In this document: in pieces, positions 2,076-16,209 of the stretch
How positions within the stretch are numbered: position 1 is the first letter of the stretch
Layout: each line of letters opens with the position of its first letter
IMG/VR virus record: IMGVR_UViG_3300025630_000032
Span: 1-31,357 of that record
DNA length: 31,357 nt
From: a virus
Strand: one strand, 5' to 3'
Notes under the pieces: model-generated
Seen by the model: only the letters and a program-made list of their open reading frames with translations
Database searches by the model: none
What the model was told of the DNA's origin: nothing
Position numbers and translations under genes: made by a program

Positions 2076-2509
2076 CCTTCGCGCTTGACCTTCAACGCTT
2101 CGTAGAAAAGACCAAGGACAAAGCCGACGATGCGGTCCGCGCCATCGTCGTCGGCATTGCCTCGCGGCTCGATGATCGCAGCCCGGTCGGCGATGCGCGC
2201 TATTGGAAGAACCCGCCGCCGAAAGGCTATGTTGGCGGGCATTTCCGCGCAAACTGGCAGCTAGGCGTCGGAACAATCCCCGCTGGCGAGATTGTTGGCG
2301 TCGATCCAACGGGCGAGGCAACGCAAGGCAAGATCATCGCCGAGATCCCCGCGCAGCCCGCAGGCCACGTCTATTTCCTCGCCAATAACGCGCCCTATGC
2401 GCGCCGCCTCGAAGAAGGCTGGTCGCACCAGGCACCGCAAGGGATGGTCGGCCTAACGGTTGTCGAGTTCGAGCAGATTGTGCGCGAAGCGGTGGAGGCG
2501 GTGCAATGA
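2072..2509 (+). CDS. HK97 gp10-like tail completion protein
   Basis: A 145-residue protein with the usual layout of HK97 gp10-type proteins: a helical N-terminus, a SPVGDARYWKNPPP segment leading to GGHFRANWQL (the family's S-P-V-x-G...R-x-x-W signature), and a C-terminal motif with NNAPYARRLEEGWSHQAPQGM, typical of 'Y-A-x-x-x-E-x-G...P-x-G-M'. Proteins of this class join the neck to the tail tube. It overlaps both neighbours by 4 nt. Confident by motif and gene order. Confidence 0.85.
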   Translation: MTFALDLQRFVEKTKDKADDAVRAIVVGIASRLDDRSPVGDARYWKNPPPKGYVGGHFRANWQLGVGTIPAGEIVGVDPTGEATQGKIIAEIPAQPAGHVYFLANNAPYARRLEEGWSHQAPQGMVGLTVVEFEQIVREAVEAVQ

Positions 2510-2910
2510 CCGTCCTCGCCGTCCGCACCGCATTGGAAACCGCGCTCGCAGGTATGTCGCCCGCGCTCGATACCGCATGGCCTAACCTCGATTTCACGCC
2601 GGTTGACGGCACGCCTTACCAGCGCGCCGATATCCTGTTCGCATCGCCCGACAATCCCGAATTTGGCGCGGGGCATACCGAGCAGGGGATTTTCCAGATC
2701 CGGCTTTACTACGCGCTTGGCGCGGGGGCTGACCCTGCCGAGGCGCGTGCCGAACTTATCCGCACAACCTTTAATCGTGGCGCGTCTTTCACGGCGTCAG
2801 GCGTCACCACGACGATCAACCGCACGCCGGAAATATCGCCAGGACGCGCCGAGGAGGACCGTTGGATGGTTCCCGTCCGCATCCGTTTCTTCGCCCACGT
2901 CGCGTTATAG
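2506..2910 (+). CDS. Tail terminator-like protein (DUF4128-type)
   Basis: A 134-residue protein starting with a helix-forming stretch (VRTALETALAGM), followed by conserved W-PNLDFTPVDGTPY and Q-IRLYYALG elements that match small phage minor tail or tail terminator proteins (DUF4128 class). It lies between the gp10-like gene and the tail tube gene, the canonical position of the terminator that caps the tail tube during assembly. The start ATG overlaps the upstream stop. Confidence 0.75.
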   Translation: MTVLAVRTALETALAGMSPALDTAWPNLDFTPVDGTPYQRADILFASPDNPEFGAGHTEQGIFQIRLYYALGAGADPAEARAELIRTTFNRGASFTASGVTTTINRTPEISPGRAEEDRWMVPVRIRFFAHVAL

Positions 2911-2919
2911 GAGGTAAAA

Positions 2920-4137
2920 ATGAGCGTCGCCCAAGGTATTAACAAGACTATCGCTTACAAGAAGCAGGCTGGCCTTGGCACGCCTGCTTCGGGCTCGGGC
3001 GGTCAATTGATCCGCCGCGAGACGGCTACGTTCCCGGTAACGAAGGACTCGTATGCGAATAACGAGATCGTTTCGCACCAACAGCACACGGGCGACACGC
3101 ATGGCGTCCGCTCGTCTGCCGGCACAGTCAACGGGCTGGTTTCTCCGCTATCCTATCAGGACTGGTTCGGTTCGCTCCTGCGCAAGGCATGGGCAGCGAC
3201 TTCGAACATCACCGGCCTGTCGCTCACCATCGCGGGCAGCGGTCCCTATACCGTAACGCGCGCGTCGGGCGACTTCCTGACTGGCGGCATCAAGATCGGC
3301 GACGTTGTGCGGCTTTCGGGCGGTTCGCTCAATGCGGCAAACGTGGGCGTCAACCTGCTCGTTACGGGCGTCACGGCGACCGTCTTGACTGTGATCGTTC
3401 CGAGCGGCGACGCACTTGTCGCGGAAGGTCCGATCGCGTCTTGCACGGTTTCGGTCCCCGGCAAGAAGGTTTATGCGCCGACTTCCTCGCACACCAACGA
3501 TTATTACACGATCGAGGAAAACTGGACCGATGTAACGCGCTATCACCTGCACCAGGATATCCAGGTCGCAAGTGCCGAAATCAACGTGCCATCGACCGGC
3601 AATGTCGGCGTTACCTTCAACCTGGTCGGCCTTGGCATTCGCACCAAGTCCGGCACGCAAGTGCTCACCACGCCAACCGCAGAAACGACATCTTCGGTTG
3701 TTTCGAGCGTAAACGGCGCGGTCCTTGTCGGCGGCACCGTTTATGCCACGATCACTTCGGCGCGCGTCACGATCGACGGCCAGATCACTGCAGGCGAAGG
3801 CGTTGTCGGTTCGAACTATCGCCCCGACACGCAAAAGGGCCGCATCCGTGTTTCCGGCACGATTACCGTCCTTTACGAAAGCGACACGCTCGGCGCGATC
3901 TTCGACGACGAAACGACGACTTCGATCGTGCTCATGCTTGCCGACGACGCAACGGGCGGCGCGGATTTTGTCACGCTCTCGATGTCGAAGGTCAAGCTGT
4001 TCAGCGACGACCGCGACGATGGCGAAAAGCAAATCGTCCAAACGATGAACTTCGTCGCCGAGATCAACGGGGCTGGCGGCACCGCTCTCGCAAACGATCA
4101 AACCATCATCACACTGCAAGACTCGCTGGCGGTATGA
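2920..4137 (+). CDS. Major tail tube protein
   Basis: A 405-residue protein. The N-terminus (GINKTIAYKKQAGLGTPASG) is typical of siphophage tail tube proteins, and the body is beta-rich with many Gly/Thr/Val strands. An inserted Ig-like region is plausible around residues 100-190 (inference). It has the best ribosome-binding site in the structural block, TAGGAGGT placed 4-5 nt before the ATG, and it is one of the few genes here preceded by a real gap (9 nt), as expected for a protein made in many copies. It is followed by a mobile endonuclease gene and then by tail assembly chaperones. Confidence 0.85.
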   Translation: MSVAQGINKTIAYKKQAGLGTPASGSGGQLIRRETATFPVTKDSYANNEIVSHQQHTGDTHGVRSSAGTVNGLVSPLSYQDWFGSLLRKAWAATSNITGLSLTIAGSGPYTVTRASGDFLTGGIKIGDVVRLSGGSLNAANVGVNLLVTGVTATVLTVIVPSGDALVAEGPIASCTVSVPGKKVYAPTSSHTNDYYTIEENWTDVTRYHLHQDIQVASAEINVPSTGNVGVTFNLVGLGIRTKSGTQVLTTPTAETTSSVVSSVNGAVLVGGTVYATITSARVTIDGQITAGEGVVGSNYRPDTQKGRIRVSGTITVLYESDTLGAIFDDETTTSIVLMLADDATGGADFVTLSMSKVKLFSDDRDDGEKQIVQTMNFVAEINGAGGTALANDQTIITLQDSLAV

Positions 4138-13363: not shown

Positions 13364-13748
13364 AGTTCTCTCCGGCCTTCGTATTGGCGGCGCAATTCTT
13401 TGGGCTTGGATGCTCTGGCGTGTCCTGTTCGAAAGCGCCGATATTCACAACCGGCCCGACAAGGTGCGGCGCGCGGGTTGGGTCTATTTCCGTAGTTTCG
13501 TCATTCTGCAGGGCAGCGCGATCGTGTTCTTTTTCTCGCCGGAGAACATCTTGCGGGCAAGCGGGCGGATCGAGCCTTTGACCAGCTACACGATGGGCGC
13601 AATCGGCTCGTTCCTCGTCCTGATCGGCGCGATCCTCATTCATCACGGCCTCGACATTGCGACCGAACGCAAGAGCAATGCGGTCGGCGTCTATATCGTG
13701 ATCGCTGCAATTTCGGTTGTCTATTCACTGCTTGCGGGGTTGCTATGA
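13356..13748 (+). CDS. Multi-pass membrane protein
   Basis: A 130-residue protein with about four predicted membrane segments: near residues 8-24, 47-62, 80-98 and 111-128. The loop between the first two contains ESADIHNRPDKVRRAGW. It overlaps the preceding membrane-protein gene by 8 nt and the following holin-like gene by 4 nt. Position next to lysis genes suggests a lysis-timing or membrane role, but no family is recognised. Confidence 0.6.
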   Translation: MDEVLSGLRIGGAILWAWMLWRVLFESADIHNRPDKVRRAGWVYFRSFVILQGSAIVFFFSPENILRASGRIEPLTSYTMGAIGSFLVLIGAILIHHGLDIATERKSNAVGVYIVIAAISVVYSLLAGLL

Positions 13749-14074
13749 AGGGTTTTCTGCACGACTTGAGCGAATACGGAGCAATCCTTTTCGGCCTGCT
13801 AATCGGCACGATCGCGCACTTCGGGCGGCAATTGACCGAAGGCAATTTGATAACCTTTCGGGCCGCGCTTGGCTTCGTCATGCAATTAGGCGTAATCGGT
13901 CTCGTCGCCGCGGTCGCAACGCGCGAACTTGGCATTGCCGACGACGACATGCGGGCGCTTGCAACCGCCGTCCTGGCAATCTCGACGCAAGAGGTTTTCC
14001 AATTCCTGAAACGCAATGGATGGGGCGCCGTGGTGAACGCTGCGACGCCTGGAAAGGGTAGCGATGGCAATTGA
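13745..14074 (+). CDS. Holin candidate
   Basis: A 109-residue protein with two or three hydrophobic segments (residues ~13-27, ~44-60, ~72-85) and a charged C-terminus, directly upstream of and overlapping the endolysin gene by 11 nt. The GLLIGTIAHFGRQL and FVMQLGVIGLVAAVATREL elements resemble class III/LydA-like phage holins. It would make the inner-membrane lesion that lets the endolysin reach the wall. The small membrane protein at 15376 is a competing or second holin candidate. Confidence 0.65.
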   Translation: MKGFLHDLSEYGAILFGLLIGTIAHFGRQLTEGNLITFRAALGFVMQLGVIGLVAAVATRELGIADDDMRALATAVLAISTQEVFQFLKRNGWGAVVNAATPGKGSDGN

Positions 14075-14648
14075 CGCAAAGAAGCTGCAGCGCGCGCTCG
14101 GCGTTCCCGATGACGGCGAAATCGGCCGCGGAACGCTAACGGCGCTTTTCCAGAAGCTAGGCGCGACGATCGACCGCGCGCAGGAATTGGCGCTTTCGGC
14201 ATACGTCAATTTCCCCGCTTACGGCATCATGGACAACGAGAAGCGGCTTGCGCATTTCATGGCGCAGCTTTGCCATGAAAGCGGCGGTTTCCGCTATATG
14301 GAAGAACTCGCCAGCGGCGCGGCTTACGAGGGCCGCGCGGATCTCGGCAACACGCAACCAGGCGACGGCAAGCGATTTAAGGGCAGAGGTCCCCTGCAAA
14401 TTACGGGCAGATTAAATTATAGGAATTACGGGCGGATCATCGGTATAGACTTGGAGCGTCACCCGGAAGTGGCAGCGTTGCCGTCCATCGGACTCCATGT
14501 AGCCCTCGAATACTGGCAGAAGAATAATCTCAATGCCCTCGCTGACACAGATGACGTGCTGCGGATCACCAAGCGTATAAATGGCGGCACAAATGGATTG
14601 GCCGACCGCAAAAAACATCTGGCTAAAATCAGGGGATGGCTTGTATGA
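14064..14648 (+). CDS. GH19-type endolysin with replaced 3' end
   Basis: A 194-residue muralytic enzyme. An N-terminal segment (LQRALGVPDDGEIGRGTLTA) resembles a short peptidoglycan-binding motif. The catalytic core has HESGGF with Glu72, a second acidic pair at Glu80/81, YEGRADLGNTQPGDG, and the GRGPLQITGRLNY signature. Odd feature: the first 107 codons contain no AGA, AGG or TTA, whereas from 14385 onward such codons cluster. The gene ends LADRKKHLAKIRGWLV, and a second version of that end (ADRQAYLNKINGWLR) lies downstream of the inserted endonuclease gene. The 3' portion therefore appears acquired together with the endonuclease. Confidence 0.9.
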   Translation: MAIDAKKLQRALGVPDDGEIGRGTLTALFQKLGATIDRAQELALSAYVNFPAYGIMDNEKRLAHFMAQLCHESGGFRYMEELASGAAYEGRADLGNTQPGDGKRFKGRGPLQITGRLNYRNYGRIIGIDLERHPEVAALPSIGLHVALEYWQKNNLNALADTDDVLRITKRINGGTNGLADRKKHLAKIRGWLV

Positions 14649-14651
14649 AAC

Positions 14652-15332
14652 ATGCCATCCAACTACCATCGGACGATGGAACTACAGGAAACAAAGAACC
14701 GCTCTACGATGCGGTTTCGCGGCGGCGAAATAGTCGGCGATCTCACCTTGATAGAGGTTGCGGGGACCAAGCATTTCAGGCGTGGTGTGGCAGTCGTTTG
14801 GCGCTGCCGATGCGTCTGCGGGCGGGTGGTCGAGCGCGACCGACAAACGCTGATTCGCTCCAAACACCCAAGCTGCGGGGAATGTCGAACGATTGGCACC
14901 GCCCCGCCCGGCAAGTGGCGCCATCCCCTATACAAAAGCTGGCGGCACATGATCGCCCGTTGCACCGAACCGAAAAACAAGTCCTTTCCCGACTACGGCG
15001 GGCGCGGCATCTCGGTTTGTTCGCGCTGGATAGACGGCGAGGATGGGCTGACTGGCTTGGAGTGTTTCGCGCTGGATATGGGCGAGCGGCCTACGGGGCT
15101 AACTTTAGAGCGGCAGGATGTGAATTGCGGCTACGAGCCAAGCAATTGCGTCTGGGCCTCTCGCACAGTCCAAGGGCGGAACAAGCGCAGCGTGCGGTTG
15201 ATCGAGTTCCGCGGCGAAAGTCTGCCCATAACGGTTTGGGCCGAGCGGACTGGCATCCCTTATTTCACGTTGTATGCTCGCCTCAAAAAGTGGCCGGTCG
15301 AGCGAGCTTTGACGGAACCTGTCGCCAAATAG
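14652..15332 (+). CDS. Putative HNH-like homing endonuclease inserted at the endolysin 3' end
   Basis: A 226-residue protein. A Zn-finger-like N-terminal part has Cys pairs (CRCVCG, then CGEC). It is followed by the pattern HPLYKSWRHMIARCT, YGGRGISVCSRW, DMGERPTGLTLERQD and NCGYEPSNCVWA, which matches a phage family of HNH-like proteins usually ending L-D/E-R-x-D...YEPSNCRWA. A C-terminal helix-turn-helix-like segment (ITVWAERTGIPYFTLYARLKKW) could bind DNA. It lies 3 nt after the endolysin stop and is followed at once by the old endolysin end. Start is ATG 14652; ATG 14676 is an alternative. Catalysis is inferred from family pattern. Confidence 0.75.
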   Translation: MPSNYHRTMELQETKNRSTMRFRGGEIVGDLTLIEVAGTKHFRRGVAVVWRCRCVCGRVVERDRQTLIRSKHPSCGECRTIGTAPPGKWRHPLYKSWRHMIARCTEPKNKSFPDYGGRGISVCSRWIDGEDGLTGLECFALDMGERPTGLTLERQDVNCGYEPSNCVWASRTVQGRNKRSVRLIEFRGESLPITVWAERTGIPYFTLYARLKKWPVERALTEPVAK

Positions 15333-15379
15333 CCGATCGGCAGGCTTACCTCAACAAAATCAACGGGTGGCTACGATGA
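15332..15379 (+). pseudogene. Remnant of the original endolysin 3' end
   Basis: Directly after the endonuclease stop, one frame reads ADRQAYLNKINGWLR then TGA. It aligns without gaps to the current endolysin end ADRKKHLAKIRGWLV. Its TGA overlaps the next gene's start as ATGA, the same coupling used throughout this operon, which indicates it once ended a functional endolysin gene. It has no start of its own. Confidence 0.85.
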
Positions 15380-15624
15380 GACTTCCTTACCTTTCGACTA
15401 ATGCTGCGCGCAATCTTGTCGGCATGGCGGTCATGGCATTGTCATTCGGGATCGTCGCGGCGTTGTTCATGGTCGAGATCCCCGCAGGCAACCGCGAAGT
15501 GGCGCTTGTCATTCTCGGCGTGGCGATTGGCTGGTGTTCAAGCGTCGTGATGTTCCACTACGGAACGAGCGAAGGCAGCAAGACGAAAACAGGCATGATC
15601 AGCAAGCAAGGGGACGCGCCATGA
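15376..15624 (+). CDS. Small two-TM membrane protein, second holin candidate
   Basis: An 82-residue protein with two hydrophobic segments (about residues 12-34 and 44-62) and a polar, Lys/Ser-rich tail (YGTSEGSKTKTGM). The tail pattern is common in small membrane proteins next to alphaproteobacterial phage lysis genes. It starts inside the old endolysin stop codon (ATGA) and overlaps the spanin gene by 4 nt, so it belongs to the original lysis cassette. Holin or antiholin function is possible but not shown. Confidence 0.65.
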   Translation: MRLPYLSTNAARNLVGMAVMALSFGIVAALFMVEIPAGNREVALVILGVAIGWCSSVVMFHYGTSEGSKTKTGMISKQGDAP

Positions 15625-16007
15625 TCTTACCTCCCAGAATAGCCGCATTCTTCGCCACGTTGGCCGGCAGGCTCGTTCTCGTCGTTCTGGCAATACTTGC
15701 GGCGTGGTGGCTCGTGTCGGCGCTCACAGGCGGTTCTAGGGCAAAAATCGAGGCCAAGCTTGGCAAGAACCAAGTCGAGGCGGCGACGCAATCCGGCAGC
15801 GACGCGGTGAATACAGTCGGCGCGCAGGGTGCCAACGAGGACGCGATCGACGCGCTAACCAGGAGAAATGACGATGCGATACGAAACGCCGAAGGGGCTG
15901 GCGCTCCTGTTGCCGGTGGCGTTAATGACGCAGGGCTGCGCGCTCTTTGCCAGCGCGCAGCCTATCGCGAGCGCCCGCAGTGCTTGCAGTTCACTCCTGC
16001 CCGATGA
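15621..16007 (+). CDS. Inner-membrane spanin (Rz-like)
   Basis: A 128-residue protein with one N-terminal membrane segment at about residues 16-37 (LVLVVLAILAAWWLVSAL) followed by a polar helical periplasmic region rich in Ala, Asn, Asp and Glu. This is the topology of an i-spanin. The second spanin gene begins inside it in another frame, the classic Rz/Rz1 nesting. ATGA overlap with the preceding gene. The call rests on topology, position and nesting rather than on sequence family. Confidence 0.75.
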   Translation: MILPPRIAAFFATLAGRLVLVVLAILAAWWLVSALTGGSRAKIEAKLGKNQVEAATQSGSDAVNTVGAQGANEDAIDALTRRNDDAIRNAEGAGAPVAGGVNDAGLRALCQRAAYRERPQCLQFTPAR

Positions 16008-16209
16008 ATGGCGCGAGGGCGTTCCTGGCGCGGATCTCCCGCAAGGCAACACGGTCGGCGACTGGATAGCTTTCGGCGATGCGCAGACCGGCCAGCTCGA
16101 CAAGTCTAATGATCGTTATCGTGCGGCGGTCGGGATAGTCGAGCGATGCGAAGTCCGCGATCGAGAGGCGATTGCCAAGTCGCGCAAGAAGTTTCTCGGC
16201 ATCTTCTGA
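15868..16209 (+). CDS. Outer-membrane spanin (Rz1-like), nested in Rz
   Basis: A 113-residue protein with a signal-like hydrophobic N-terminus (GLALLLPVALMTQGCAL) ending at a Cys that could be lipidated; the lipobox is imperfect because Gln occupies -2. The rest is polar with a conserved-looking LPDEWREGVPGADLP and GDWIAFGDAQTGQLDKSN block. It overlaps the i-spanin gene by 140 nt in a different frame. AGGAG lies at 15860-15864, so ATG 15874 is better spaced than ATG 15868. This is the last rightward gene before the convergent accessory operon. Confidence 0.7.
   Translation: MTMRYETPKGLALLLPVALMTQGCALFASAQPIASARSACSSLLPDEWREGVPGADLPQGNTVGDWIAFGDAQTGQLDKSNDRYRAAVGIVERCEVRDREAIAKSRKKFLGIF

Follow-up and report, generated by a model that had tools for sequence, protein, structure and literature searches.

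Why does a phage endolysin gene end twice, once in front of an endonuclease gene and once behind it? The question is raised by the lysis region of a viral DNA of 31,357 nucleotides (IMG/VR record IMGVR_UViG_3300025630_000032), which was analysed over its full length and is called the window here.

Two endolysin ends around an endonuclease gene

The endolysin gene (14064-14648) is of the GH19 type and is preceded by an upstream gene at 13745-14074; the endolysin gene and the features behind it lie on the + strand. Its codons 1-103 (14064-14372), which match PF00182 and group with the relative L002, appear to be the native 5′ part. The remaining codons, approximately 104-194, and the stop (14373-14648) appear to be a replacement, as suggested by codon divergence and an incongruent tree. 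The live gene encodes the C-terminal end ADRKKHLAKIRGWLV. It is followed by an open reading frame of 681 bp (14652-15332), directly behind which, and out of frame with it, a second endolysin end is encoded at 15332-15379. This remnant has the sequence ADRQAYLNKINGWLR; the TGA that closes it (15377-15379) shares bases with the ATG at 15376, where the next operon gene (15376-15621) starts. That gene encodes a small membrane-type protein and has a homologue at the endolysin stop in relatives L003 and L005. Along the locus, the order is thus endolysin gene, endonuclease frame directly after the putative replacement end, and putative native end downstream. A sequence-only reading of the window had named the live end, the 681-bp frame, the second end and the TGA/ATG overlap, all of which are borne out. 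The arrangement is not a single-contig quirk, since it is duplicated on IMG/VR contig 3300025818_000049, with which the window shares 12.6 kb at 99.96% identity. Further downstream, two overlapping small genes (15621-16209) resemble a spanin pair (Rz/Rz1): one encodes a membrane segment at the N-terminus, the other a lipoprotein-like start. No PHROG match was found for them.

The protein encoded between the two ends matches the profiles phrog_374 (E=7e-52) and phrog_3377 (E=5e-43) and carries the core motifs of this family. It belongs to HNH-type PHROG families, not to LAGLIDADG or GIY-YIG. Searches of Pfam, NCBIfam and the PDB with the protein returned no match, and a PDB fold search with its structure model gave nothing significant. 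The gene had been described as 681 bp long; this length holds for the open frame but not for the gene, which probably starts at 14709 instead of 14652, as most of the long family matches begin around residue 25 of the longer frame. The free-standing endonuclease gene is accordingly placed, with this probable start, at 14709-15332. In the window protein a proline replaces the histidine of the THG motif, which is a histidine in more than 90% of the aligned family, so the enzyme may be decayed. The open frame shares the frame of the endolysin gene, with the TGA and one codon between them (14646-14654). Read-through of this TGA would yield an endolysin-HNH fusion, and the shared frame is possibly due to chance.

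To score the second end, a tail profile was built from the endolysin tails of 19 relatives (14 distinct sequences). The live end scores 34.5 bits and the remnant 27.5 bits, while the third-best score among 44,434 six-frame windows, at the best non-endolysin site, is 8.9 bits. The remnant is genuinely a second end of the endolysin gene, and a chance match is excluded. It retains most of the family tail, and its stop/start overlap with the next gene resembles the endolysin junctions of the relatives. The second end had also been called untranslated. It can only be presumed so, because the remnant terminates an alternative-frame open reading frame of 247 aa (14636-15379) that spans the whole HNH gene and for which no Pfam match was found.

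The mosaic endolysin gene and its uninterrupted relatives

The two parts of the endolysin gene differ in their codons. We scored codon identity at conserved amino acids against 17 GC-rich relatives, and it falls from 0.55 in codons 1-107 to 0.34 in codons 108-194. This difference of 0.21 compares with -0.05 to 0.07 in all other GC-rich relatives. The best break by codon matching lies at codons 103-107, nucleotides 14370-14385 (permutation 0.005), in agreement with the codon switch previously noticed from 14385: the codons AGA, AGG, ATA and TTA are absent from codons 1-103 and occur seven times in codons 104-194. The protein sequence of the 3′ part is conserved while its codons have diverged. 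Protein identity to L002, the relative nearest to the window in the 5′ part, is 86% in the 5′ part and 69% in the 3′ part; the corresponding values for L005 are 72% and 76%. In trees of the 5′ part, the window pairs with L002 (support 0.94 for protein and 0.93 for nucleotides). In the tree of the 3′ part, L002 joins the L003-L008 group and the window lies outside on a long branch, with moderate support. The compositional oddity is limited to the 3′ endolysin segment, which falls at the 2.7th percentile of codon usage within the window; the endonuclease gene, at the 32nd percentile, is not odd.

As the live 3′ part is the outlier in codon identity and the relatives have no such drop, we take the live end to be the replaced one and the remnant to be the native one. 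The codon break and the tree incongruence point to a foreign C-terminal part joined in frame to the native gene, and they argue against uniform ancestry of the endolysin gene, the 3′ part having a history different from that of the 5′ part. The hybrid frame is intact and full-length, and its structure model is confident (mean pLDDT 96.3). Residues E72 and E81, which are presumably the catalytic residues of this GH19 enzyme, are invariant in the endolysin alignment and both lie in the native 5′ part. No donor of the 3′ segment was found among phages, among plasmids, or by querying IMG/VR with the segment.

Relatives lacking the insert were sought among 25 near endolysin relatives gathered from IMG/VR and genome scans, none of which has an HNH gene of the window's family at this locus. 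In L003 and L005, as anticipated, a single endolysin end, ADRKHHL(S/A)KIKGWLL, runs straight into the homologous next gene, with its stop overlapping the start of that gene. The next gene is 57% identical to the window gene at 15376, and L003 additionally carries the upstream gene. The endolysin of L002 has the end DDRKAHLAKIEGWLR, and its ATGA overlap is the one found at the window remnant. Among the relatives examined, none carries both endolysin ends without the endonuclease. In seven genomes that encode related endolysins, no HNH gene was found beside the endolysin gene, and in 399 genomes of one related-endolysin family there were nine HNH matches, none with a convincing gene-end duplication.

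The homing interpretation offered by the sequence-only reading is supported by this comparison of sequences. We consider it quite probable that a free-standing HNH homing endonuclease gene inserted here, with a co-converted, divergent 3′ end that rescues the endolysin gene.

The same layout around other phage genes

An unlikely alternative is ordinary phage mosaicism, in which the endolysin 3′ part and a passenger HNH gene would have been acquired by recombination in the GH19 core with an illegitimate right join, not driven by the endonuclease. The sequence outcome would look identical, the HNH gene and the 3′ part are unlike in composition, and the HNH protein may be decayed. What weighs against mosaicism is that the layout recurs, with one HNH family, at seven unrelated target genes. 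At up to 233 unique places with same-family HNH genes, we asked whether the same gene end is present on both sides of the HNH gene; the succession of gene end, HNH gene and second gene end was also found around six other phage target genes. These are an ATP-dependent DNA ligase (L264), where the remnant likewise terminates in an ATGA shared with the following gene; a phiKZ gp42-like gene, DUF7484 (L277, L364/L365 and L366); a small nuclease-like gene (L435/L436); a phrog_874 gene (L311), whose NPWVWVVEFKR motif also ends the gene in uninterrupted Pseudomonas phage relatives; a phrog_1761 gene with the HNH gene antisense (L242); and, as the weakest case with a score of 40, a large terminase (L358). 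The geometry of these elements is also difficult to reconcile with mosaicism: across the seven targets, the remnant mostly begins no more than about 15 nt from the HNH stop, and the copy upstream runs to the stop of the gene. The remnants are about 15-40 codons long. For the ligase case, no uninterrupted close relatives were found beyond its own contig.

The two ends often differ in spelling. Where they encode the same amino acid, the codons are identical at 3 of 8 positions in the window, 2 of 13 in L264, 3 of 15 in L277, 7 of 15 in L436 and 2 of 5 in L358; the ends are less different in L364 (8 of 16) and L366 (10 of 16).

The screening rules were altered several times with results in view, and the pooled list of seven targets is not a prevalence estimate. 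Low-complexity matches in alternative frames rich in GC were numerous in the early tblastx and across-stop screens, and these screens were superseded. A generalised screen passed three cases only, as it relied on the ends of hits and clipped genes that overlapped; the cases L277, L358, L435/L436 and L311 rest on other screens. When the geometry was required, cross-locus pairings reached a score of 40 at 0.0006 per pair, or about 0.14 expected in the set, and part of these pairings are real homologues. Control open reading frames gave 32 passes at a score of at least 40, from which we claim no clean control rate; the control passes listed, sorted by eye, included copies of known HNH loci and low-complexity translations.

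Three further arrangements were observed in the same set. The 760-aa large terminase frame of L358 (191-2473) contains an intein-like stretch, CVAPDTLVLTEHGPIPIWRID, and has the HNH gene at its 3′ end. In L273 (2236-3109), the target gene of L435/L436 is followed by an HNH gene but a remnant is lacking, which may represent a donor-like arrangement. L280 (1628-3106) holds a tandem pair of same-family HNH genes.

A natural comparison is provided by L364/L365 and L366, nearly identical phages with 96-100% identity in the flanking blocks. They differ at about 2290-3520, in the 3′ end of the target gene, in the remnant and in the initial portion of the HNH gene. The live-end spelling of L364 is the remnant spelling of L366, and the reverse nearly holds. 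Either spelling can therefore be live or remnant, which fits repeated rounds of replacement. The exchange also bears on a second alternative, in which the 3′ end was duplicated on insertion and the downstream copy, which was not used, then decayed, with nothing foreign acquired. Similar ends on both sides of the insert are what duplication would leave, but decay of an unused copy is at odds with two spellings that can both be live. In the window, moreover, the outlier is the live copy and not the remnant, the divergence of the live copy begins 76 codons upstream of the point where the remnant starts, and the remnant has kept most of the family tail. As the odd copy is the live one, we rejected this explanation and regard it as very improbable. 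A self-splicing group I or II intron with an HNH frame, giving two alternative endolysin ends, was rejected as practically negligible: the downstream end is plausible as an endolysin 3′ end, but beside the frame there is very little room for a ribozyme, no Rfam intron was detected in 14000-15700 at E up to 1, and a full-length enzyme is already encoded with the live end in place.

Proposed insertion with rescue and its known counterparts

Under the preferred reading, homing with rescue, the insertion point of the HNH gene would lie around codon 180 of the endolysin gene, and the divergent 3′ copy ahead of it (about codons 104-194) would restore the full-length enzyme. The endonuclease would first cut the 3′ part of an endolysin allele without the HNH gene. 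A donor phage would then serve as template for repair of the break; the left arm would be the conserved endolysin core (GDGKRFKGRGP), and the right arm would comprise the old 3′ end together with the gene that follows. The differently spelled 3′ end of the donor would be copied in with the endonuclease by co-conversion, and the old 3′ end would be left behind the endonuclease as a short remnant with its stop/start overlap, probably also carrying the leader of the next gene. The live end would escape the endonuclease through its different spelling, and the right-hand homology arm for the next transfer would be provided by the remnant. Cleavage, the repair route and the immunity of the live end are proposed here by analogy with known homing systems (PMC2988022), and the window HNH protein itself is a presumptive endonuclease of the endolysin gene. 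The HNH gene and the replacement end may have arrived together in a single event; we infer this joint arrival, as the two have no common compositional signature.

The closest known cases are gene hybrids in fungal mitochondria. In atp6 of Allomyces macrogynus and in atp6, atp9, cox2 and nad3 of Glomus, mobile endonuclease frames come with foreign C-terminal ends: the foreign part is fused to the native gene, the endonuclease frame follows, and the native end lies downstream (PMC3630166). The two ends of Glomus atp6 are 91% identical in protein and 63.5% in DNA (PMC3630166). The window has the same order of foreign end, endonuclease and native end, and its ends are likewise similar in protein and diverged in DNA. 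The fungal hybrids are mitochondrial and of LAGLIDADG or GIY-YIG type, whereas the window case is from a tailed phage and HNH-type. The seg and mob genes of T4-like phages are free-standing, adjoin their targets and spread with flanking co-conversion (PMC2988022). Like them, the window gene lies beside its target gene without an intron or intein; unlike it, the T4 elements reviewed lie between genes, and the review describes no case in which a 3′ end was replaced and the old one stayed behind (PMC2988022). Homing endonuclease genes of phages are also associated with terminase, replication and structural genes and with island boundaries (PMC10448857). The families in the passages considered, T5orf172 and IPA-HNH, are unlike the window HNH family, and gene-end replacement is not described in these passages. 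We found no phage description of the layout in the open literature; subscription papers were mostly outside this coverage and priority is not certain.

On balance, we lean towards the view that tailed phages carry a natural home-and-rescue class of elements, in which free-standing HNH genes enter near the 3′ ends of many different phage genes, with a new end that would be uncuttable because it is differently spelled, and an old end kept as a homology arm for the following transfer. Engineered home-and-rescue drives, known from CRISPR constructs in Drosophila (PMC7968924), share the principle of a drive that enters an essential gene and rescues its function; the likeness is one of analogy only. 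If the proposal is true, the phage elements would be a natural counterpart to these drives, and would explain how an important gene can survive the entry of a homing endonuclease that has neither intron nor intein. The enzyme is predicted to cut the old spelling and to spare the new one. For annotation, the finding calls for caution: some phage genes would have replaced 3′ ends, and phylogenies or inferences from codons can be misled by them.
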